Made by a program: the position numbers and the translations under genes. A model generated the notes under the pieces. That model searched no databases. It saw nothing but the letters and a program-made list of their open reading frames with translations, and was not told the DNA's origin. From a virus, in IMG/VR virus record IMGVR_UViG_3300041405_000395, positions 1-28,437 of that record: 28,437 nucleotides of DNA; one strand, 5' to 3'. Below, one piece after another: positions 5,443-19,015 of the stretch. The number at the start of each line of letters is the position of its first letter. The stretch's first letter is position 1.

Positions 5443-6075
5443 ATGAAAGTTTGCTCTGTACATGAATGTGAGCGAAAGCATGCTGCTCACGGACTATGCA
5501 GGATGCATTGGCAGCGCATGCGAAGTAGTGGCACTACTGAATTGAATAAGATCCCGTCAGGGGAGCTGACCCAATTAACGCTAAAGCAATTGCTTAACTA
5601 TGAGCCTGAGACCGGGATTTTCAGATGGAAAGTGAAAATAAAAGGGAATGTAAAGCCTGGGGATATTGCAGGATGCATCGATAGTCAGGGCTACAGGGTG
5701 ATTCGAATTTTTAACAAGAATCGAAAAGCTCATCGGCTTGCCTGGCTCTATATCTATGGAGAATACCCTTCAGTAATCGACCATATCGATCGCAATCGGT
5801 CGAACAATTTTATTTCCAACCTGCGCATAGCAACACGTCGAGAAAATACAGTTAATCGCTCATCCCTCAGCAAGTGCGCCTCTGGTTACACCGGTGTCCA
5901 TTGGCAAGCAAATGCGGGTAAGTGGGCGGCTTCAGTAACCATCAAGGGCAAGAGAATCTATTTAGGCATTTTCTCAGACCCATTTGATGCGGCTGAAGCG
6001 AGGAACCGCTACTGCAAAGAGAATTTAGGTGAATTTTATAATCCAGATTTAGTCAGGAGGAATAATGAGTCTTGA
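5443..6075 (+). CDS. HNH homing-type endonuclease with AP2 domain
   Basis: A 210-residue protein in three parts. Residues 1-28 carry Cys4, Cys9, Cys19 and His22, a small zinc knuckle. Residues about 40-135 form an HNH domain with AHRLAWLYIYGEYP, then the core IDHIDRNRSNNFISNLRIAT (D113, H114, N118, N122, N126). Residues 147-195 are an AP2-like DNA-binding domain (SGYTGVHW, KWAASVTIKGKRIYLGIFSDPFDAAEAR). This is the layout of free-standing phage HNH-AP2 endonucleases, which spread by cutting phage relatives that lack the gene. It is wedged between rusA and Q, starts one base after rusA, and its 3' end contains the Q ribosome-binding site. Its codon use looks more AT-rich than its neighbours, which fits a mobile gene. 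Confidence 0.9.
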   Translation: MKVCSVHECERKHAAHGLCRMHWQRMRSSGTTELNKIPSGELTQLTLKQLLNYEPETGIFRWKVKIKGNVKPGDIAGCIDSQGYRVIRIFNKNRKAHRLAWLYIYGEYPSVIDHIDRNRSNNFISNLRIATRRENTVNRSSLSKCASGYTGVHWQANAGKWAASVTIKGKRIYLGIFSDPFDAAEARNRYCKENLGEFYNPDLVRRNNES

Positions 6076-6832
6076 AGCGACAGTCAAATATCATTTTGCG
6101 AAGACAGCGAGCTTTGCCGGTATGCCGCCTGCAACAGCCTCAGATGCTTTATCTGGCACCGACTATATGGCAGCCATGGGAATGACACAGAGTCGTGCTC
6201 CGCTGGGTTACAGTGCGTTTATGGGTAAGGTTGGAGTAAGCGATAACGACGCCCGACGCGCCGTATCGTTATTAACTGAATATGCTTTGAGTACCTGCGA
6301 TAAGGTTGCCGCCTTACGCAAGCTAGACACTGATATTAAGCCAGCGGTTATGCAAACGCTCGCAACTTATGCCTACATGGATTATTGCCGCAGCGCTGCC
6401 AGCGTCAAGCCGTGCGAATGCTGCCAAGCGAAAGGGTTTATTGAGGCGGATGTGTTCACCATGAAGTCACCTCTATCAGGCGGATCATCCCGAAGCGTGA
6501 AAGAGGTTGTTCGCGTTATCTGCAAGACCTGCAGCGGGAAGGGTGTAGTCTCGTCATCATGCCGTGATTGCAGCGGACGTGGACGGGCGGTTGATCGCAA
6601 GCTTACTGAAGAGCAGGGCGTACCGGTCATGGGTGACTGTAAGCGATGCTATGGCCGCGGTTATGAGCGCGTTCCCGCTGTGGAGGCGTTTCGCAGCGTC
6701 TGCGAGATTACCGATGCAGTCAGCTTGGCTACGTGGGATCGAAGTGGAAAGCCGTTCTATGACCAACTAATCGGCAAGCTGGAGATTGAAGAATCGTGGG
6801 CTAACTCCGCCCTGAATAAGGTAACCGGATAG
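6065..6832 (+). CDS. Q: Late antiterminator Q (phage 82-type, DnaJ-like zinc fingers)
   Basis: This 255-residue protein matches the Q family of the phage 82 type. It carries four Cys pairs with DnaJ-like glycine-rich spacing: C117ECC120QAKG, C153KTCSGKG, C166RDCSGRG and C192KRCYGRG. A helical N-terminal region (TDYMAAMGM, LGYSAFM, DARRAVSLLTEYA) and a C-terminal helix (IGKLEIEESWANSALNKV) flank the zinc region. By family it binds DNA at the late promoter, joins the paused RNA polymerase and makes it terminator-resistant, switching on lysis and morphogenesis genes. ATG 6065 has AGGAGG (6055-6060) inside the HNH gene. It is followed by the 433-nt late leader. Confidence 0.92.
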   Translation: MSLEATVKYHFAKTASFAGMPPATASDALSGTDYMAAMGMTQSRAPLGYSAFMGKVGVSDNDARRAVSLLTEYALSTCDKVAALRKLDTDIKPAVMQTLATYAYMDYCRSAASVKPCECCQAKGFIEADVFTMKSPLSGGSSRSVKEVVRVICKTCSGKGVVSSSCRDCSGRGRAVDRKLTEEQGVPVMGDCKRCYGRGYERVPAVEAFRSVCEITDAVSLATWDRSGKPFYDQLIGKLEIEESWANSALNKVTG

Positions 6833-7067: not shown

Positions 7068-7089
7068 TAACATCACTAAACTATTTCAG

Positions 7090-7117
7090 AAGGTCAGCCA
7101 TAGAGCTGGCCTTTTTT
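7090..7117 (+). terminator. Intrinsic terminator in late leader, second
   Basis: AAGGTCAGC (7090-7098) and GCTGGCCTT (7105-7113) form a 9-bp stem with one G-T pair and a 6-nt loop, followed by TTTTTT (7112-7117). This is the best-looking terminator of the leader and the likeliest equivalent of lambda tR', which Q-modified polymerase would read through. Confidence 0.75.
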
Positions 7118-7664: not shown

Positions 7665-7953
7665 ATATAATCACAAACGTAGCCTGATAGTCGGCTGCGT
7701 TCTCACCATGATGACACTCATCTGCATTGCAATGACCTGCCTGTTTGTTTACGTGACAAATGATGCAAACCGCCAGATTGAAAACATCCGCAATGATTAC
7801 CGCAAGGTTGCCGAGCGCCGCGATGCAAAGGTTGCCAGCCTGGCTAATCAGGTAGCATCCCTTCAGCAGCAGATGAGTTCATTACCAGATCGCACAGCCA
7901 ACAAGACTGCCGCACAGGTCAAGCAGGTAGTGAAGGAGGATGAGGGCAAATGA
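7648..7953 (+). CDS. Second single-TM coiled-coil protein of lysis cassette
   Basis: A 101-residue protein starting at ATG 7648. An upstream ATG at 7624 only adds eight residues lying inside the previous gene. It has a short positively charged N-terminus, one TM segment (about 12-36, SLIVGCVLTMMTLICIAMTCLFVYV), and a periplasm-sized coil (about 40-77, ANRQIENIRNDYRKVAERRDAKVASLANQVASLQQQM). That is the topology of an inner-membrane spanin, yet a clear Rz/Rz1 pair lies further downstream. It may be a holin accessory or a divergent spanin-like protein. The stop overlaps the endolysin start (ATGA). Confidence 0.6.
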   Translation: MTNSAKYNHKRSLIVGCVLTMMTLICIAMTCLFVYVTNDANRQIENIRNDYRKVAERRDAKVASLANQVASLQQQMSSLPDRTANKTAAQVKQVVKEDEGK

Positions 7954-8489
7954 CGAAAGGCGAAATCTTTAGCGCCATCCTCGGCAAAGAAGGGGGTTAC
8001 GTTAATAACCCGGCAGACAAAGGCGGTCCTACCAACTGGGGCATCACTCAGGCGGTTGCCAGAGCGCACGGTTACACCGGTGACATGAAAGACCTCACCC
8101 GATCTCAGGCTCTGAATATTCTTGAGTCAGATTACTGGGTAGGTCCGCGATTCGACCAGGTAGCCCAAGTCAATAATGCGATCGCTGTAGAGTTGACCGA
8201 CACCGGCGTAAACATGGGGCCATCGGTTGCCGCAAAGTTTCTTCAGCGGTCCCTGAACGTGTTCAACAATCAGGGCAAGCTTTATGCCGACATCGTGGCA
8301 GACGGTCAGATTGGGCCGCGCACTATCACTGCACTGCGATCATTCCTTTCGGCCCGCAGCCGGGATGGTGAGAAGGTGATGCTGAAAGCGCTGAACAGCC
8401 TGCAGGGCGCCCGATATATTGAGCTGGCAGAATCCAGAGTGGCTAACGAGACGTTCTCCTACGGCTGGTTTGAGAGGGTGGAAATCTGA
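7950..8489 (+). CDS. Endolysin, GH108 N-acetylmuramidase
   Basis: A 179-residue protein of the GH108 (N4-type) muramidase family. The N-terminal domain has KEGGYVNNPADKGGPTNWGIT (13-33), with Glu14 in the EGGY motif as the catalytic acid. LTRSQALNILESDYWVGPRFDQV and DTGVNMGPSVAAKFLQRSLN follow. The C-terminal part (VADGQIGPRTITALRSFL, ARYIELAESR, F-YGWFERV) matches the family's PG_binding_3-like domain. By family it cleaves the MurNAc-GlcNAc bond of peptidoglycan. No secretory signal peptide is seen, so it probably depends on a holin. It is flanked by overlapping membrane-protein genes, confirming a lysis cassette. Confidence 0.93.
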   Translation: MTKGEIFSAILGKEGGYVNNPADKGGPTNWGITQAVARAHGYTGDMKDLTRSQALNILESDYWVGPRFDQVAQVNNAIAVELTDTGVNMGPSVAAKFLQRSLNVFNNQGKLYADIVADGQIGPRTITALRSFLSARSRDGEKVMLKALNSLQGARYIELAESRVANETFSYGWFERVEI

Positions 8490-9373: not shown

Positions 9374-9607
9374 ATGGCATCTAAAGACCTCACCCTGACA
9401 TCAGACTGGCAACAGATTACTGACGGAACGCAGGATGTTCAGTTGCAGGTAATGGGCGGCACCATCTGGCTGAGAGATTCCCCGAAGAAGCCAGCCGCAA
9501 ATGCTAAGGGGCACATCGTAAGCACGATGGAATGGATGGGTATTACTGCACCACAACAAATGTGGGCCCGCTCTCAGGGCGGCAATGCAACCATCATAGT
9601 GACGTGA
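9374..9607 (+). CDS. Small beta-rich protein, possible virion decoration protein
   Basis: A 77-residue protein behind a good AGGAG (9363-9367). The pattern LTLTSDWQQITDGTQDVQLQVMGGTIWLRDS...GHIVSTMEWMGITAPQQMWARSQGGNATIIVT is that of small all-beta proteins found among phage structural genes, as I recall them. The alternating hydrophobic strands and lack of helices fit a surface-bound decoration or fibre-base protein. It is the first gene of a four-gene accessory block between lysis and terminase. The function is inferred only from fold pattern and position. Confidence 0.5.
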   Translation: MASKDLTLTSDWQQITDGTQDVQLQVMGGTIWLRDSPKKPAANAKGHIVSTMEWMGITAPQQMWARSQGGNATIIVT

Positions 9608-9615
9608 GGTGAATC

Positions 9616-10896
9616 ATGGCTCTGTTTCCTCAGCGTGGCTTCACGCCAGTAAAGACTATCGTCACTGACCAGGTGAAAGCTACAGAGCTGACTATAGGCA
9701 AAGTGGTGACAAACTCACCTGACCAGCCTGCTGGCGCATCCATTACCGGAGATGCACCAAAGCAGTTTCTGAATCTGGCAATACCACAGGGACTGCCAGC
9801 CGAGACTCCGGCTCCGCCAACAATGCATGCAGGCACAGTCAAGTCCCTTCCTGCGGGCACCACTCCCACGGTAGAGATGGCCGGGAGTTACCCAAATTAC
9901 ACAGTTAATTTTGGATTTCCGGCGCCGGAAAACGGCAAAGACGCTGACCAATACCAACTTAGTATCGGCAAAGTGACTGCTTTACCATCTGACAGTCAGC
10001 CCACGGCAAGCATCACCGGTGAATATCCAAATCAGCTATTCAATGTCGGCATCCCCATCCCCAAAAATGGTGATGATGGGCGCAACGCAACACTGAAAGT
10101 TGGCAAAGTCACTACGCTGTCTTACGGAAACCCGGCAACAGTCGAGTTCACTGGTTCAGGGCCTGACCAGGTTGCAAACTTTGGCATCCCTGCAGGAAAG
10201 GATGCTCCAGAGCCAGCTCCGGTAGAGTTAACTGTAGGTACAGTCATCGCATTGCCCTCAACAAAGCAGCCCACAGTTGAGATAACCGGCAAGGCACCTA
10301 ATCAGGTTGTTAACTTTGGCATACCGGCCGGGCCGCCCGGCGAGTCTCCTCAACCGACAAGCTTCAAAATAGGCTCGGTAACAAACCTGCCAGCGGGCTC
10401 AGCGCCAACAGTGAAGATATCAGGGGCGGCACCAAGCCTGACTATCGACTTTGGCCTGCCATCCGGCGCACCTGGCGACAGCCCCTTGCCAAACAAGCTA
10501 ACCGTCGGTGCGGTAACACTGCTTTCTGCAGGCTCTAATCCCACAGTTAAGATAAGCGGGACTCCTCCAAATCAGACTGTCGATTTCGGCATCCCGGCTG
10601 GGGCGGCCGGTACAAATGCCACGCCTGTCTATTTCGAGACGATACCCGCAAAGGTAGTAACCTCAGGAACCGCCGTAAGCATCACGTTCGCAAAGAAATA
10701 TTCAACGCCACCCATTGTGACGCCTAACCCTGTATGGAATGGCGATCAGGTCGTAATGGGCCAGGCATCTGAAATCACCACCACTGGTTGCAAGGTTATC
10801 GTCAAGCAGTCTACAGGAACGCTGATACTGAACGGCAGCCCATTCGGTAACGCTCCGGTTAACACGACCGCATCCATGTTCGTAATCGGCAACTAA
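9616..10896 (+). CDS. Repeat-built fibre protein with C-terminal tip domain
   Basis: A 426-residue protein in three parts: an N-terminal 24-residue attachment region (MALFPQRGFTPVKTIVTDQV), seven repeats of exactly 45 residues (25-339), and a C-terminal tip of about 87 residues. The repeat consensus is L-x-[IV]-G-x-V-x2-L-P-x-G-x2-P-T-V-x-I-x-G-x2-P-N-Q-x-V-N-F-G-I-P-x-G. The Gly-x-Pro-rich joints have the character of collagen-like phage fibre repeats. The tip (VYFETIPAKVVTSGTAVSITFAKKY...GCKVIVKQSTGTLILNGSPF) looks like a beta-sandwich binding domain. Such repeats are known from phage fibre proteins, so a trimeric capsid or tail fibre is the likely product. P22 itself has no such gene here. 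A GAGGTGA site precedes the start. Confidence 0.75.
   Translation: MALFPQRGFTPVKTIVTDQVKATELTIGKVVTNSPDQPAGASITGDAPKQFLNLAIPQGLPAETPAPPTMHAGTVKSLPAGTTPTVEMAGSYPNYTVNFGFPAPENGKDADQYQLSIGKVTALPSDSQPTASITGEYPNQLFNVGIPIPKNGDDGRNATLKVGKVTTLSYGNPATVEFTGSGPDQVANFGIPAGKDAPEPAPVELTVGTVIALPSTKQPTVEITGKAPNQVVNFGIPAGPPGESPQPTSFKIGSVTNLPAGSAPTVKISGAAPSLTIDFGLPSGAPGDSPLPNKLTVGAVTLLSAGSNPTVKISGTPPNQTVDFGIPAGAAGTNATPVYFETIPAKVVTSGTAVSITFAKKYSTPPIVTPNPVWNGDQVVMGQASEITTTGCKVIVKQSTGTLILNGSPFGNAPVNTTASMFVIGN
9688..10632 (+). repeat. Seven tandem 135-bp coding repeats
   Basis: Repeat units begin at residues 25, 70, 115, 160, 205, 250 and 295 of the fibre protein, each exactly 45 codons long with no insertion or deletion. 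The units have drifted in sequence, but the motifs GxV, PTV, G-x2-P-N and NFGIP keep their places. Confidence 0.85.
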
Positions 10897-10908
10897 GAGG
10901 AAATAACC

Positions 10909-11175
10909 ATGTCGCTTAAACGCAACCAACTGCCTCGCTACCAGGGTAAAGACAACCAGGTACTGGCGCTCAAAATCAAAGAAGTGCGTCAGGATGTAGA
11001 TGGCGCTGGCTACATTGTGCCTGAAGATGATTTCTACCCTGAGTTTCAGGTGTCAGGTGAGTACATGAGTAAGTATCAGCCTAAAAAGGGCGGCTACTAC
11101 GTCGAGCTGATTGATGGAGATCCGATTTACATGGATGCCAAAGACTTCTCCAAGCAATACACACTGATGAAGTAA
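10909..11175 (+). CDS. Adaptor-like protein, paralogue of the next gene
   Basis: An 88-residue protein behind AGAGGA. It shares QLPxY...DNQ...ALKIKEVRQDVDGAGY..DDF......P..GGYYVE...G..IYMDAKDFSKQY with the first 80 residues of the next protein, including IK-x2-RQ-x-VDG, GGY and YM. The two are clearly tandem paralogues. It consists of the shared domain alone. It is probably a small virion protein linked to the fibre above it in the same block. The shared domain has no name I can give with certainty. Confidence 0.65.
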   Translation: MSLKRNQLPRYQGKDNQVLALKIKEVRQDVDGAGYIVPEDDFYPEFQVSGEYMSKYQPKKGGYYVELIDGDPIYMDAKDFSKQYTLMK

Positions 11176-11187
11176 CCAGGGGAAAAC

Positions 11188-11703
11188 ATGAAACGCCAAT
11201 GGCCTACCTACAGCGACACGGACAACAACTTTGTTTATGCGCTACCTATTAAGTCAATCAGGCAGACAGTAGACGGTTACGCCTACGCCAGCTTTGATGG
11301 TGACTTTGATGAGCAATACCTCTCACCGCAATTCATGGGCATTTTCCGTCCGGTAGTTGGCGGATACCTGTTTACCAGCGCATCAGGTGAACTGCTCTAC
11401 ATGAGCAAGACCAAGTTTGAAGCTCAGTACAGTGCAGCCGGTGCCGCCGCAACATGGGCGAGCATTACCGGAAAGCCAGCAACGTTTGCTCCAACTATCG
11501 GCACTACAGCGACTACAGCGATGGCTGGCAACAAGACGCCAACCTCAGCAGAGCGTGGTGGTGTACTGCAGCAGGCAGCAGAGACAGCTATCCCTGCCCA
11601 GACGGTAACTGATATCGCTACGGCACAGACGGCAGTGAACACGATCGTGACAAAGGTTAACAGCATCCTCACCAAGCTGAAGGCCGGTGGCGAGCTCGCG
11701 TAG
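11188..11703 (+). CDS. Head-fibre-like protein with paralogous N-terminal domain
   Basis: A 171-residue protein in two parts. Residues 1-80 are the paralogue of the preceding 88-residue protein. Residues 85-171 are an Ala/Thr-rich stretch (WASITGKPATFAPTIGTTATTAMAGNKT, then RGGVLQQAAETAI) ending in a helix AQTAVNTIVTKVNSILTKLKAGGELA. That ending matches the C-terminal style of phage head-fibre proteins (Phage_fiber_2 type), whose tails run GGV-x-QA-A...A...L..LN..L..L...G-L-A. The protein may anchor or form the base of a capsid fibre. It is the last gene before a hairpin and the terminase block. Confidence 0.65.
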   Translation: MKRQWPTYSDTDNNFVYALPIKSIRQTVDGYAYASFDGDFDEQYLSPQFMGIFRPVVGGYLFTSASGELLYMSKTKFEAQYSAAGAAATWASITGKPATFAPTIGTTATTAMAGNKTPTSAERGGVLQQAAETAIPAQTVTDIATAQTAVNTIVTKVNSILTKLKAGGELA

Positions 11704-11711
11704 TCATTACA

Positions 11712-11731
11712 GAGCATCTCAAGAGGTGCTC
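11712..11731 (+). other. Stem-loop between accessory block and terminase genes
   Basis: GAGCATCT and GGTGCTC-side bases pair over 8 bp, including one T-G pair, around a CAAG loop. No T-run follows, so it is not an intrinsic terminator. It may be an RNA-processing or stability element at the junction of the accessory block and the packaging genes. Confidence 0.45.
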
Positions 11732-11755
11732 GATAATGATAACAGGAGGCTAAAA

Positions 11756-11998
11756 ATGTCCGACTTAAACCTGCAAACATCGTTGACCGACCAGCAAAGA
11801 CTCCGCCTCGAACTCCTTGAGTTAGTGCAGTACGACACTGCCGCAGCTCAGGATGCCATCGCAGAGATTAAAGACGATCAGCTGAAGTTCGAACTCTTCA
11901 AGCGTCAGTACGCACTCGCACAGGGTGAACCTACTGCCGTATCCCGCACAACCAAAGCTATCCGGGGCATGAAAGAAGCTCTGGAGCTGTTCCAGTAA
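11756..11998 (+). CDS. Small conserved protein upstream of terminase
   Basis: An 80-residue helical acidic protein starting at ATG 11756, behind AGGAGG (about 11744-11749). An upstream in-frame ATG at 11687 lies inside the previous gene. The sequence has [29 protein letters not shown] and [36 protein letters not shown]. No TM or catalytic motif is seen. It precedes terS by 11 bp and might be an accessory packaging protein, but function is unknown. Confidence 0.6.
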
Positions 11999-12009: not shown

Positions 12010-12498
12010 ATGGCAGCACCAAAGGGTAACCGATTCTGGGAGGCCCGCAGCAGTCACGGGCGCAGTCCTAAGTTTGAGTCACCCGAGCAACTATGGGCTG
12101 CCTGTTGCGAATACTTCCAGTGGGTAGAAGAACATCCACTGTGGGAGATGAAAGCATTTGCCTACCAAGGTGAAGTGACACAAACGCCTATTGCGAAGAT
12201 GCGGGCTATGACGCTCACCGGCTTAACTCTGTTTCTGGATATCACTTTAGAGACATGGCGAGTGTATCGCTCCAGAGAAGACTTATCTGAAGTCACCACG
12301 CGAGCAGAGCAAGTTATCTATGACCAGAAGTTCTCTGGCGCTGCGGCTGACCTGCTAAACGCCAATATCATCGCCCGCGACCTTGGGCTGAAAGAGCAAT
12401 CGCAAGTCGAAGACGTGACACCTGATAAGGGAGATCGTGATAAGCGACGCTCTCGCATTAAGGAGTTACTGAGCCGTGGTGGAAGAAGCGATTCTTGA
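12010..12498 (+). CDS. 3: Terminase small subunit (P22 gp3)
   Basis: This 162-residue protein has the same length as P22 gp3 and nearly the same sequence as I recall it: [38 protein letters not shown] at the start and [42 protein letters not shown] at the end. By family it forms a nonameric ring that recognises the pac site, delivers DNA to gp2 and starts headful packaging. The pac element itself lies inside this gene. Its 3' end overlaps the gp2 start by 23 nt. Confidence 0.97.
12277..12298 (+). promoter_or_regulatory. pac: Putative pac packaging-initiation site
   Basis: The sequence here begins GAAGACTTATCTGAAGTC and agrees with the P22 pac core, a 22-bp element inside gene 3, at about 18 of 22 positions as I remember it. 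It encodes EDLSEV in gp3, where P22 has the same peptide. In P22, gp3 recognises this asymmetric site and packaging proceeds rightward toward gene 2. The site was recalled, not searched, so the exact match count should be verified. Confidence 0.65.
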
Positions 12499-13975
12499 TG
12501 ACATGTCAGAAGAAGAGCAAATCGAGTTGCTTGAGCTTCTGGAGGCCGAAGAGCAGTACAGCAAGACGCACGCTCTCTACGAGTTCGTGCCATACACGAA
12601 ACAGAGAGAGTTCATTGATGCAGGCAGCGATTATACAGAACGCTGCTTCATGGCCGGCAACCAGTTAGGCAAGTCATTCACTGGTGGAGCAGAGGTTGCA
12701 TTCCACCTGACCGGAAGATACCCCGGCACCAAAGGCTATCCGCAGGATGCAGCCTGGCAGGGCGAGTGGGGTGGGAAACGCTTCGACTCCCCTGTTGTTT
12801 TCTGGGTAGGTGGCGAGACAAACGAAACCATCACCAAGACTACGCAGCGCATCCTGTGTGGTCGTATTGAAGAGAACGACGGTCCCGGATACGGCGCACT
12901 GCCTAAAGAAGACATCATCAGCTGGAAGAAGTCTCCGTTCGGACCAAACCTTGTCGATCACATTCTTATTCGTCATCACAATGAGGATGGCGTAGAGGAT
13001 GGCATGTCCATCTGCTACTTCAAGCCATACTCGCAAGGCCGTCAGCGCTGGCAGGGTGACACCATTCACGGCGTCTGGTTCGATGAGGAGCCACCTTACA
13101 GCATCTACGCTGAGGGCCTGACTCGTACGAACAAATACGGCCAGTTCTCGATTCTGACGTTTACACCGCTGATGGGCATGTCAGATGTCGTCATTAAGTT
13201 TCTGAAGAACCCCAGCAAAGCGCAGAAGGTAGTCAACATGACTATCTATGACGCCGACCATTACACGGAAGAGCAGAAAGAGCGGATCATCGCTTCCTAC
13301 CCTGAGCATGAGCGAGAGGCCCGAGCGCGCGGCATCCCAACCATGGGTAGTGGCCGCATATTCCAGATACCCGAAGAAACTATCAAGTGCCAACCATTCG
13401 AATGCCCGGACCACTTCTATGTCATCAACGGAATGGACTTCGGATGGGACCACCCACAGGCACAGATACAGCTCTGGTGGGATAAAGACGCTGACAAAAT
13501 CTACATCCCCCAAGTATGGAAGAAAGCAGAAAACACTGCTGTGCAGGCATGGGGTGCAGTCAAGGCGTGGAGCAAAGGCATACCCTGTGCGTGGCCGCAT
13601 GATGGTCACCAGCACGAGAAGGGTGGCGGCGAACAACTGAAGGGCCAGTACTCAGACGCAGGATTCCTGATGCTACCTGAGCACGCAACTTGGCCGGATG
13701 GTGGTAACGCGGTAGAGCCTGGGCTCATTGAGATGCGTGACATGATGCTCGATGGCCGCTTTCAGGTATTCAACACCTGCGAGCCTTTCTTCGATGAGTT
13801 CCGTCTCTATCACCGCGATGAAAACGGCAAGATCGTCAAGATTAACGATGACGTGCTCTCAGCCGTTCGTTACGCCTACATGATGCGCAGGTACGCAAGA
13901 TTGATGCGTGACATCAAGAAGCCCAAAGAAAAGAAATTACCGGCACCGATTCGCCCAATTACCCGGAGTAGATAA
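12476..13975 (+). CDS. 2: Terminase large subunit (P22 gp2)
   Basis: This 499-residue protein has the same length as P22 gp2. It starts at GTG 12476 (AAGGAG at 12460-12465), which aligns with the P22 start. The N-terminal ATPase has a Walker A-like [15 protein letters not shown], and VWFDEEPP as Walker B with catalytic Glu. [10 protein letters not shown] is the coupling motif. The C-terminal RNase H-like nuclease has GMDFGWDHP and downstream acidic residues ([31 protein letters not shown]). By family it translocates DNA into the procapsid and makes the headful cut. It overlaps gp3 and abuts the portal gene. Confidence 0.97.
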
Positions 13976-16172: not shown

Positions 16173-17084
16173 ATGAGCGAAACCACCGAAATTCAGAACA
16201 CTGAAGGACAAACCCTGCCCGGCGATCACACTGCGGCATCAGTTGAAAGTCAGGTTGACGGTAATGCCACCGGCACCGAAGGGCAGGATGAGGGCTTTGA
16301 CATTGTCCTGAATGACGATGAGAACAAGCCGAAGCAGGACCACGAAACAAACGCGAAGTTTGCTGCTCGTCGCCTGGCACGTAAGCGCCAGCGTGAACTT
16401 GAACAGCAGATGGAGGCGGTGAGTCGTGGTGAGCTTCCGGAAACCCTGCGGGTTAATCCTGATTTACCCAAGCAACCGGACGTGAATGAGTTCCTGTCAG
16501 ACGATGCTTTAGCAAAGTATGACTACGACACAAGTCGCGCTCTGGCTGCTTTTAACGCGGCCAATACAGACTGGCTGATTAAGGCTCAGGACGCACGCAG
16601 TAATGCGGTAGCTGAGCAGGGTCGCAAGACACAGGATTACACCCGCAACTCCACGCAGGTTGTCGAGGCGGCGCGCAAGCACTATGACGCTGCAGAGAAG
16701 CTGAACCTCAGCGACTATCAGGAAACAGAAGAAGCTTTCAACGCGCTGGTGCCACCGGGTACTGACGTGGAAATTATGAACCTCTTCCCTGAGAAGTCGG
16801 CTGCGATCATCTATCACCTAGGTAAAAACCCGGAGAAGACCCGACAAATCCTGAGCATGAACTCACAGCAGGCGCTGATTGAAATCACGCGCCTCTCAGA
16901 CCGTTTAACTCTCAAGCCCCGCGGTAAGCAGCTGTCATCCGCCCCACCGGTCGACGAGCCGATTCAGGGCACCGTTGCTGCAGCCAATGTATCCGCTCTT
17001 CAGAAGAAGATGGATGAAGCCGCGCGACGTGGTGACACAGCGAAATATCGCGAACTTAAAGCACAGATTAAAGGAATCCGCTAA
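16173..17084 (+). CDS. 8: Scaffolding protein (P22 gp8)
   Basis: A 303-residue protein, the same length as P22 gp8. The start is ATG 16173 (MSETTEIQ), matching P22 METTEIQ-like ends. A GTG at 16155 would add six residues and is less likely. It has an acidic, disordered N-terminal half, a conserved centre with [34 protein letters not shown], and a basic C-terminal helix-turn-helix ([29 protein letters not shown]), the part that binds coat in P22. It is released after assembly. It overlaps the coat start by one base. Confidence 0.95.
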
Positions 17085-18388
17085 TGGCACTTAACGAAGG
17101 TCAGATGGTAACTCTCGCAGTAGACGAAGTTATCGAAACAATGCAGAACATCATGCCGATGGTTATGAAGGTGGATAAGTACACTCCGCCAGGCCGCGAA
17201 ATGCAGCGCGGTGATAACACCATCTGGATGCCAGTCGAACAGGAAGCGCCGACTCAGCGCGGCTGGGACCTGACCGACAAAGAAACCGACCTGCTCGAAC
17301 TGAACGTGAAGGTCACTCTGGATGAGCCGGATAATGACTTCTTCGACATCCGTGCCGATGATGTGCGTGATGAGTCAACCTACCGCCGCCGCATTGCAGC
17401 ATCCGCTAAAAAGCTGGCGAACAACGTGGAAGCTGAGATTGCCCGCACCGCAGCTGAAATGGGCTCACTGATTGTGACCAGCACCGGTCCGGTTGGCAGC
17501 GCTAACACCGGGTGGGACTTCATCTCTGAAGCGGAATCGCTGATGTTCTCGCGAGAGCTGAACCGTGATGCGGGCCTGTCGTTCTTCTTCAACGCCAATG
17601 ACTACCGCGGCGCGGGACGGGACCTGGCTGGCAAGGACTTCTACGGACGCATTCAGGATGACGCGTACACCAAAGGCGTGATTCAGAAGCAGGTCGCAGG
17701 CTTCAACGACGTGCTGCGCTCGCCAAAACTGCCGACGCTGGTTAAGTCTGATGCGACCGGCGTTACTGTCAGCGGCGCGCAGAAATTCAAGCCTCAGTCA
17801 TGGCGCCTGAACGAAGACAACAGCCGTGAGAACGTGGATAACCGCTTTGCGACCGTCAACGTCAGCTCCGGCACCGGCTTCAAGCGCGGCGACAAGATTT
17901 CATTCGCAGGCGTTAAGTTCCTCGCGCAGATGGCGAAGAACGTGCTGGTTCAGGATGCAACATTCTCTGTAGTGGCTGTTAACGGCAACGCCATCACGAT
18001 CACTCCGAAGCCTGTTGCGCTGGATGACACCAGCCTGACCGCTGCAGAGCGTGCATATGCCAACGTCAACACGTCACTGGCAGCTGGCGCGGCTATCAAT
18101 GTGCTGAACACTGATACCGTGGCAACCAACGTGTTCTGGGCTGATGACTCCATCCGCCTGGTATCGCAGCCAATCCCGCTGAACCACTCGCTGTTCGCTG
18201 GCATGAAGTCCGAAGCGTTCTCCATTCCTGGCACCGGACTCAATGGGGTGATTGCCTTCCAGGGTGATATCAGCACGCTGTCTGGCAAGTGCCGTATCGC
18301 GCTGTGGTACAAGTCCACCGCAGTACGTCCGGAAGCAATCGGTGTTGGCCTGGCGAATCAGGACGTTGCGACTGCCGTAGAAGGCTGA
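17084..18388 (+). CDS. 5: Major coat protein (P22 gp5)
   Basis: A 434-residue coat protein, four residues longer than P22 gp5 (430). It begins [21 protein letters not shown] and has [40 protein letters not shown], the E-loop and spine region of the HK97 fold. The inserted I-domain lies at about 230-340 ([15 protein letters not shown]...[30 protein letters not shown]). [15 protein letters not shown] and [30 protein letters not shown] complete it. By family it forms the T=7 shell. It starts in a one-base overlap with the scaffold gene (TAATG). A terminator-like hairpin follows its stop. Confidence 0.96.
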
Positions 18389-18414: not shown

Positions 18415-18427
18415 AATGGAGACGATC

Positions 18428-19015
18428 ATGAGCGTAATGCTTTATAAGTCAGGCCTCGGCACTAAGGTGTGGGGAAAAGAACTGCAATCGAAAGTCGTCA
18501 CTGATGGTGACGTCGAAGAATATCTGGCGGAAGGCTGGTTTAAGCATCCTCAGGATGTACCTGATGACCTGCCGATCCCCTATGGTGAATCAAATCCTGA
18601 CACTGTAGAGGATATGGGTGAGGTTTCTGACGGTTACCACACATTCAATGAGCTTTATGCTCACCGTGTTCGCCTTTTCTCTACCCTGATGCATGCCTTT
18701 CCTAAGCAGTCCTGGTGGAGTTTTCAGCACCATGATGGCGAGCAGTGGGAAGGGTGGGTTCTGGCTGGAATCGACACTCCTGAAGGCGCGGTAACGTACC
18801 ATCTGCCAGAGAGCGAAATCGAAAACCTTCCGCAGGGAACAGAGATTGAGTTCGGTAAAGAGTGGGATGGCCACACTGCTGATGATGTCCTGTCGCGCTT
18901 GCTCACATTGCGCCCTGAGGCGAAAAAGAAAGGTGGACGCAAGCCTAATCCAGAGCCAGAAGCTGAACCCGAACCTCATGCAGAGGTAAATGATGAACCT
19001 GACAACGAAGGGTGA
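18428..19015 (+). CDS. Two-part protein between coat and gp4
   Basis: A 195-residue protein starting at ATG 18428, with GGAG at 18418-18421 (an upstream ATG at 18416 lacks a site). Residues 1-60 ([38 protein letters not shown]) look like a small phage module. Residues 65-160 carry the motif [18 protein letters not shown], a Trp-rich middle with [27 protein letters not shown], and [17 protein letters not shown], which I know from many small phage proteins outside this operon. The tail is KKKGGRKP and Glu/Pro-rich. It appears to be a fusion of a capsid-operon gene with a stand-alone phage domain. Function is unknown. It overlaps gp4 by 23 nt. Confidence 0.65.

Follow-up and report, generated by a model that had tools for sequence, protein, structure and literature searches.

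The window analyzed here, IMG/VR virus record IMGVR_UViG_3300041405_000395 taken over its whole length of 28,437 bp, carries a cassette of four genes that we label A, B, C, and D. This cassette is likely to be a capsid-surface module that is expressed late and occupies the dec locus of a temperate phage of the P22 type. By sequence, two of its products, C and D, share the OB-fold domain of Dec, the decoration protein of phage L, and the occurrence of C and B among relatives tracks the type of the coat protein. B has the makeup of a trimeric fiber, and A probably accompanies it. All four are real genes under purifying selection, because the ratio of nonsynonymous to synonymous substitution rates (dN/dS) against relatives is 0.04 to 0.12 wherever it could be computed. 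They follow one another at gaps of 8 bp (A-B), 12 bp (B-C), and 12 bp (C-D), with plausible Shine-Dalgarno sequences.

Dec-type proteins C and D and the coat protein

The capsid-surface interpretation is firmer for C and D because both are homologous to a proven decoration protein encoded at the same locus. Dec is a trimer whose OB domains stand as the legs of a tripod at inter-hexon quasi-three-folds of the shell, while its C-terminal part forms a spike (PMC6449081); it is present in purified virions of phage L (PMC8022706). The OB domain of D matches the structure of phage L Dec (PDB 6e3c) at E=1e-26, and D matches phrog_3018 (head decoration) at E=2e-12. Furthermore, residues 5 to 78 of D are 58% identical to records from Salmonella and other P22-like phages, including Dec of phage L. 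C matches 6e3c weakly (E=0.0096) and its paralogue D over 82 residues (37% identity, E=1e-14), and among its annotated relatives is a "Dec protein" whose gene adjoins that of the major capsid protein in Pantoea phage PdC23. C ends three residues past the aligned OB-fold, without the C-terminal trimeric stalk. In phage L, dec lies directly upstream of gene 3, which is the slot of C and D; in the window, a DUF2560 gene stands between D and gene 3. On the strength of this homology, D very probably decorates the capsid, and C is expected to do so with only slightly less confidence.

The preliminary description of this DNA had presented C and D as paralogous, adaptor-like proteins, one of them with a tail like that of a head fiber. 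The paralogy and the shared domain hold up, and the tail is moderately supported at best. An unknown adaptor fold was dropped, since the 6e3c matches point to the OB-fold of Dec. In a tree of OB domains, proteins consisting of the OB domain alone and those with a tail separated on a well-supported branch (98/97), in an alignment with few columns and some long branches. A search of the genome collection with peptide patterns from D found none. In complete Escherichia coli genomes, the sole match, 195 bp long and present in two strains from ducks, belongs to another Dec-type gene with a head-fiber tail in a P22-type prophage.

The tail of D is stalk-like but of a sequence family other than that of the Dec spike. 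It matches phrog_1954 (virion structural protein) at E=5e-12 and phrog_6994 (head fiber) at E=0.011. When the tail profile was compared with PDB, the top match was a chance-looking one to a photosystem, followed by the head-fiber trimer gp21 of crAss001 (second, E=0.075), the capsid fiber gp8.5 of phi29 (third, E=0.32), and the head fiber 3qc7 (fourth, E=1.5). These PDB E values are weak, and the weight lies on their agreement in kind. As a whole, the matches lend weak to moderate support to a head-fiber-like tail. A homologue of the tail from E. coli HL15 had no match when searched against annotated phages. Among the relatives, which are designated by L and a number, a Dec variant (L118:3812-4438) joins a linker of the head-fiber type to a beta-spike end like that of Dec, which suggests an exchange of stalks on the OB foot.

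The two proteins differ at the residues through which Dec binds. Y49 and K30 of Dec, which belong to contact site 1, matter most for capsid binding, and the substitution Y49E lowers it (PMC6449081). D proteins of the window type have Tyr or Phe at position 49 in all six sequences, Arg or Lys at position 30, and Glu at position 73. All 12 C proteins carry Gln, Glu, or Asp at position 49 and Asp at position 71, and two of the 12 have an acidic residue at position 73. On the side of the shell, window-type coats have Glu or Asp at position 81 (18/18) and keep P82; they all lack residue 299 and have Ala at position 322. D is likely to bind the capsid in the manner of Dec. C probably binds in another way or at another site, because the contact tyrosine of Dec is absent from all of its sequences while D keeps Tyr or Phe. 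By sequence, we class C as a Dec homologue; with Y49 absent, we do not assign it the binding mode of Dec. Obvious candidate sites for C would be the hexon-penton quasi-three-folds and the true three-folds, which Dec leaves empty in phage L.

The best evidence for a capsid role of the cassette is its association with the coat. We took the best 80 loci by similarity to the window coat, picked regardless of the cassette. For contingency tests we kept those with an OB gene and with readable coat and terminase, removed duplicates, and defined a window-type coat by at least 80% identity to that of the window. All 12 contigs with a window-type coat had an OB-only gene, compared with 1 of the 32 others that had an OB gene (Fisher p=6e-10, uncorrected for descent). 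Terminase type showed a weak association of the opposite sign (p=0.02). Another 13 contigs in which the slot was visible had no OB gene, and all had other coats. Among bacterial genomes, C accompanied both window-type coats (2/2), and an OB-only gene was found with none of six other coats with an OB gene, so that pooling contigs and genomes gives 14/14 against 1/38. Escherichia sp. ESNIH1 and Pantoea eucrina have C without A, B, or D.

A survey of 72 contigs with a visible slot, in which presence was predicted from the identity of each neighboring protein, gave the same picture. By the area under the receiver operating characteristic curve (AUC), the coat predicted C at 1.00, compared with 0.67 for the portal, 0.64 for the scaffold, 0.62 each for the lysozyme and the tail needle, 0.61 for gp10, 0.38 for terL, and 0.37 for terS. 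For B, the coat reached 0.97, compared with 0.61 for the needle, 0.56 for gp10, and 0.40 for terL. Physical linkage alone fails to explain this pattern, because four genes in the interval from the cassette to the coat gene, terS, terL, portal, and scaffold, do not predict C or B (AUC 0.37 to 0.68). A fit to the coat, or less likely to gp4, can explain it.

The window coat is 68% identical to that of phage L, and 68% is also its best identity among the matches listed from 50,697 phage records; its relatives at 81 to 100% are metagenomic or prophage contigs. By sequence it appears to represent a P22-type subgroup without a close cultured member among the matches listed. Behind the same cassette and coat type, terminase modules of two very different types (38 to 44% identical) have been swapped (positions 12476-13975 of the window; L003:4891-6339).

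Relatives carry the cassette in many combinations. All four genes occur in the window, L002/L055, L003, and L005/L069; A, B, and C occur in L004/L067 and L058, and together with another fiber-like open reading frame (ORF) in L062. A fiber-like ORF accompanies A and C in L036 and L038. C and D are found in L014, L023/L056, and L041/L096, C alone in L143 and L144, and C with a remnant of B in L059 and L060. A D-like gene occurs without C in L016 to L019, which have phage-L-like coats, and in L020, which has no coat on the contig. At L068:2767-3030, B has been deleted at an 8-bp direct repeat (GGTAATGC), so that A now reads in frame into the final residues of B. Because C stands alone in P. eucrina and ESNIH1 and B was never found without C among the relatives, this distribution argues for C as the constant part of the cassette and for a dependence of B on C or on its coat.

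Fiber B and its neighbor A

Self-comparison of B gave a mean BLOSUM score of 1.81 at an offset of 45 residues, compared with a mean of -0.75 (standard deviation, 0.39) over offsets 20 to 79, and no other period stood out. The protein consists of a short start, seven repeats of exactly 45 residues each from residue 25 to about residue 339, and a tip of about 86 residues. Relatives in L002 and L003 have five repeats. In L044/L057, L058, and L062, the repeats are replaced by a collagen shaft (Pfam collagen, E=1e-21 in L044) while the start and tip are unchanged. Because one trimeric shaft has thus been swapped for another with both ends staying in place, the exchange is strong evidence that B is a trimeric fiber, and we hold it to be highly probable that this fiber is part of the virion.

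The N-terminal segment of B, searched alone against annotated phages, had no match. The tip is 49% identical to the C terminus of gp19 of Pantoea phage vB_PagM_AAM22, a collagen-containing protein that is annotated as structural, encoded among head genes, and the only annotated phage relative. Similarity of the tip to the H-type lectin family (PF09458; E=0.093) falls below the cutoff, with 13.3 bits against a curated value of 24. The AlphaFold model of the tip was poor (predicted local distance difference test [pLDDT], 55), and its profile found nothing in PDB. As a tailspike, B was rejected as a first choice: it has no match to PF09008, the head-binding domain of the P22 tailspike, and that domain is encoded elsewhere in six of six full-length relatives tested.

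A matches phrog_4772 (E=5e-18), and its AlphaFold model is all-beta with eight strands (pLDDT, 93). In Foldseek searches there were borderline cupin-like matches (best E=3e-3, TM score about 0.65), and the better matches were unnamed small phage proteins; by sequence, A had no match to cupins and none in PDB. Its homologues adjoin fiber-type genes that differ from one phage to another: B, an ORF of phrog_11600, proteins with collagen or an Sf6-type knob, and tail-fiber genes of N15-like prophages, in which the A-like gene lies between a side tail fiber gene and genes resembling tail-fiber assembly genes. Since A is accompanied by several coat types, it is probably a partner of fibers rather than a ligand of the coat.

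There is some virion evidence for such a pair. In CsCl-purified virions of Sajous1, the knob protein gp119 was found with 16 spectra and gp120 with four (PMC10892097, Table 6); gp120 is encoded in the record by a 77-amino-acid gene adjoining gp119 and matches the A profile at E=1e-20. LIMEstone1 has the same gene pair, and its knob protein, ORF169, was confirmed by mass spectrometry. By analogy, we lean toward A being in the virion.

Several loci show variants of this arrangement. In L036 (5454-6374) and L038 (2419-3372), an unrelated fiber-like ORF of phrog_11600 precedes A, and a truncated ORF at L062:18-545 has a similar C terminus; the phrog_11600-type ORF is likely to be another exchangeable fiber of the dec slot. 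A P22-type contig (L080:3712-4511) has a short protein with collagen and an Sf6-type needle knob in that slot, followed by an A-like gene. In the Ackermannviridae examined, the A-like gene lies directly before an Sf6-type tail-needle-knob gene (L052:5971-6732, L135:1230-1991).

Proposed arrangement and alternatives

We propose that D would bind the shell after packaging and expansion, as a trimer in the manner of Dec, standing on its three OB domains and carrying its tail as a short coiled stalk. C, which is stalkless and without the contact tyrosine, would occupy a different class of site on the same coat lattice and act as the actual decoration protein for this type of coat. B would be held by its short conserved N terminus on the capsid surface, either on C or on the coat. 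There, its tip could reach out to a glycan of the cell surface, making it an auxiliary, reversible attachment factor beside the normal tailspike, with A as an accessory of the fiber. A placement of B on the capsid rather than on the tail is the one that we favor, with moderate confidence. A more specific version is that the cassette forms a two-tier, coat-matched system, in which C fills the sites that Dec-type proteins leave empty and docks B, together with A, as an exchangeable capsid fiber, giving the virion many long adhesive head fibers in addition to its tailspikes. We put this version forward tentatively, as an idea that may well prove wrong.

A number of observations weigh against our interpretation. 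The cassette of this phage is known from genes alone and not from virions, and the best annotated matches to the repeats of B are named minor tail proteins. The association with the coat is uncorrected for common descent, and the window-type coats form one clade. Moreover, gp4, whose gene follows shortly after that of the coat, has predictive value too, with an AUC of 0.92 for C and 0.93 for B, and this may leave room for an attachment near the portal vertex. For A, the virion evidence amounts to four spectra from a distant phage, and its homologue in LIMEstone1, ORF168, is not among the virion proteins confirmed by mass spectrometry; besides occurring with several coat types, A is absent beside many C genes. 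Finally, there are relatives lacking A, relatives lacking B, and relatives lacking D, and the gene content thus argues against a fixed four-part complex.

An alternative is that C and D decorate the capsid, and that B, accompanied by A, is an additional fiber of the tail or neck that merely shares the locus. The names given to relatives of the B repeats (minor tail or tail proteins) point in this direction, as do the genes next to A in N15-like prophages and Ackermannviridae and the predictive value of gp4 for B. Yet gp10 and the tail needle fail to predict B, whereas the coat does; B has no P22 tailspike head-binding domain, which the relatives tested encode elsewhere; and AAM22 gp19, the only annotated relative of the tip, lies in a head-gene cluster. 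We consider this alternative unlikely, although it deserves to be kept in view. It is also conceivable that, rather than binding the capsid, C regulates or antagonizes D, for instance by forming mixed OB trimers, and that B is anchored by D. In favor of this, C and D are adjacent paralogues and C has no trimerizing stalk, but C occurs without D in L058, L059, L060, L062, L067, L143, and L144, so that acting on D cannot be its main role, and B occurs without D in L004/L067, L058, and L062; such a role is improbable. Less plausible still, the cassette could comprise morons, lysogenic-conversion genes that the prophage expresses and whose products act on the surface of the host and not in the virion: the slot is as variable as moron loci are, but the cassette has the strand and operon position of the late gene dec, no promoter or terminator of its own above chance, and homology to Dec.

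Placed on the capsid surface or in a second tail fiber by the preliminary description, the cassette is best read in the first way. This is firmer for C and D through their homology to Dec and their place in the dec locus, while the mounting of B on the capsid and the role of A are inferred. The second tail fiber loses ground, since B follows the coat and not gp10 or the needle and an ordinary tailspike domain is present in the relatives. The description of four coupled genes between the spanin and lysis block and the terminase genes was borne out at the exact coordinates of the ORFs and in the flanks, as were the 45-residue repeats of B and the small beta protein A. That all four act together in one structure gains no support, as A, B, and D are each lost independently in relatives.

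Gene surroundings and relation to known systems

Coordinates are collected in Table 1. Upstream of the cassette lie the antiterminator gene Q (6065-6832) and lysis genes, including a GH108-type lysozyme (7950-8489) and spanin-like genes. Downstream are the DUF2560 gene, the terminase genes gp3 and gp2, portal, scaffold, P22-type coat, gp4, gp10, tail needle, and injection proteins. The start of the DUF2560 gene (11687-11998) is probably not the GTG at 11687, which lies within D, but the ATG at 11756, which follows a strong AGGAGG, an arrangement shared with L014. Between coat and gp4 is a WDGH-domain gene (18416-19015; PF25311, E=1e-39), where phage L has Orf186. From a hairpin at 7088-7115 to position 12600, a range that includes the cassette, no promoter-like sites above chance and no terminator-like sites on the plus strand were found. 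By analogy with phages L and P22 (PMC8022706), A to D would belong to a single late operon. Searches for Rfam and tRNA features found none, and a plasmid search gave no match.

Table 1. Features of the cassette and the coat gene in the window
Feature	Position	Strand	Properties
Gene A	9374..9607	+	77 amino acids; ribosome-binding-site-like sequence; phrog_4772; small all-beta protein, probable fiber-associated partner
Gene B	9616..10896	+	426 amino acids; predicted trimeric fiber; dN/dS 0.08; phrog_32311 and minor-tail/tail-protein phrogs
B, conserved N-terminal segment	9616..9684	+	About 22 residues, MALFPQRGFTPVKTIVTDQVKAT; candidate anchor; kept with both kinds of shaft
B, shaft	9688..10632	+	Seven repeats of 45 residues; autocorrelation peak at 45 only
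B, C-terminal tip domain	10633..10893	+	Conserved in 7 sequences; subthreshold similarity to H-type lectin
Gene C	10909..11175	+	88 amino acids; predicted OB-only Dec paralogue
Gene D	11188..11703	+	171 amino acids; predicted Dec OB-fold and coiled tail
D, N-terminal Dec OB-fold domain	11188..11439	+	Residues 1-84; PDB 6e3c, phrog_3018 (head decoration)
D, C-terminal head-fiber-like coiled tail	11440..11703	+	In place of the Dec spike; phrog_1954, phrog_6994, weak PDB matches to head fibers
Window-type coat protein	17084..18388	+	PF11651, E=2e-156; its type predicts presence of C and B

The closest known system is Dec of phage L (PDB 6e3c; AY795968; PMC6449081). D shares with it the OB-fold N terminus, the locus, and a P22-type coat with the E81/P82 contact site. 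Dec ends in a beta spike resembling a tail fiber, whereas D ends in a head-fiber-like coil; C has neither the stalk nor the contact tyrosine; and phage L has a single OB protein with no fiber gene beside it. The tail of D resembles, in weak profile matches, the C-terminal trimeric coil of the head fibers gp8.5 of phi29 (3qc7/6qvk) and gp21 of crAss001 (7qof), which are capsid-surface fibers thought to bind cell surfaces (PMC10172136). In those proteins, however, the capsid-binding N terminus is a beta-tulip or a short peptide, unlike the predicted OB-fold base of D. Collagen-like capsid spikes such as SPP1 gp12 (PMC7602432) also place a trimeric repeat or collagen shaft on an accessory fiber, and relatives of B have true collagen; this likeness lies in the kind of shaft, with no sequence relation claimed, and the capsid site of B would be a proposed one. 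AAM22 gp19 (MK798142) shares with B its tip, and with relatives of B a collagen shaft, as a structural protein of the head-gene region; its N terminus is unrelated to that of B, and it comes from an unrelated type of phage. Sajous1, of the Ackermannviridae, resembles the cassette in having a homologue of A beside a trimeric knob gene, with both products in purified virions (PMC10892097), but neither a Dec protein nor a repeat fiber was seen there.

The decoration system suggested by the preliminary description is therefore undescribed only in part. Dec-type decoration at this locus was already known; what is new, as far as we found, is a coat-matched OB-only paralogue, a fiber with a small partner in the dec locus, and natural recombinants among them. 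Among the near-identical three-fold sites of a T=7 shell, Dec fills some and leaves others empty, and why it does so is an open question (PMC6449081). Two diverged OB proteins on one shell, one with and one without the contact residue, together with a matching coat and recombinants, offer a test of how such sites are chosen. A capsid location of B, if it proves right, would make this protein the first capsid fiber found for a P22-type virion, as far as the literature showed. Should the two-tier arrangement be true, relatives with C, with C and D, with A, B, and C, and with all four genes, along with two kinds of shaft, would constitute a ready-made assembly series. Few models of capsid assembly are as well studied as the P22-type virion, which is also in wide use as a nanoparticle platform. 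The genes that coat it appear here to be inherited with a matching type of shell protein, and their parts are thus directly testable.

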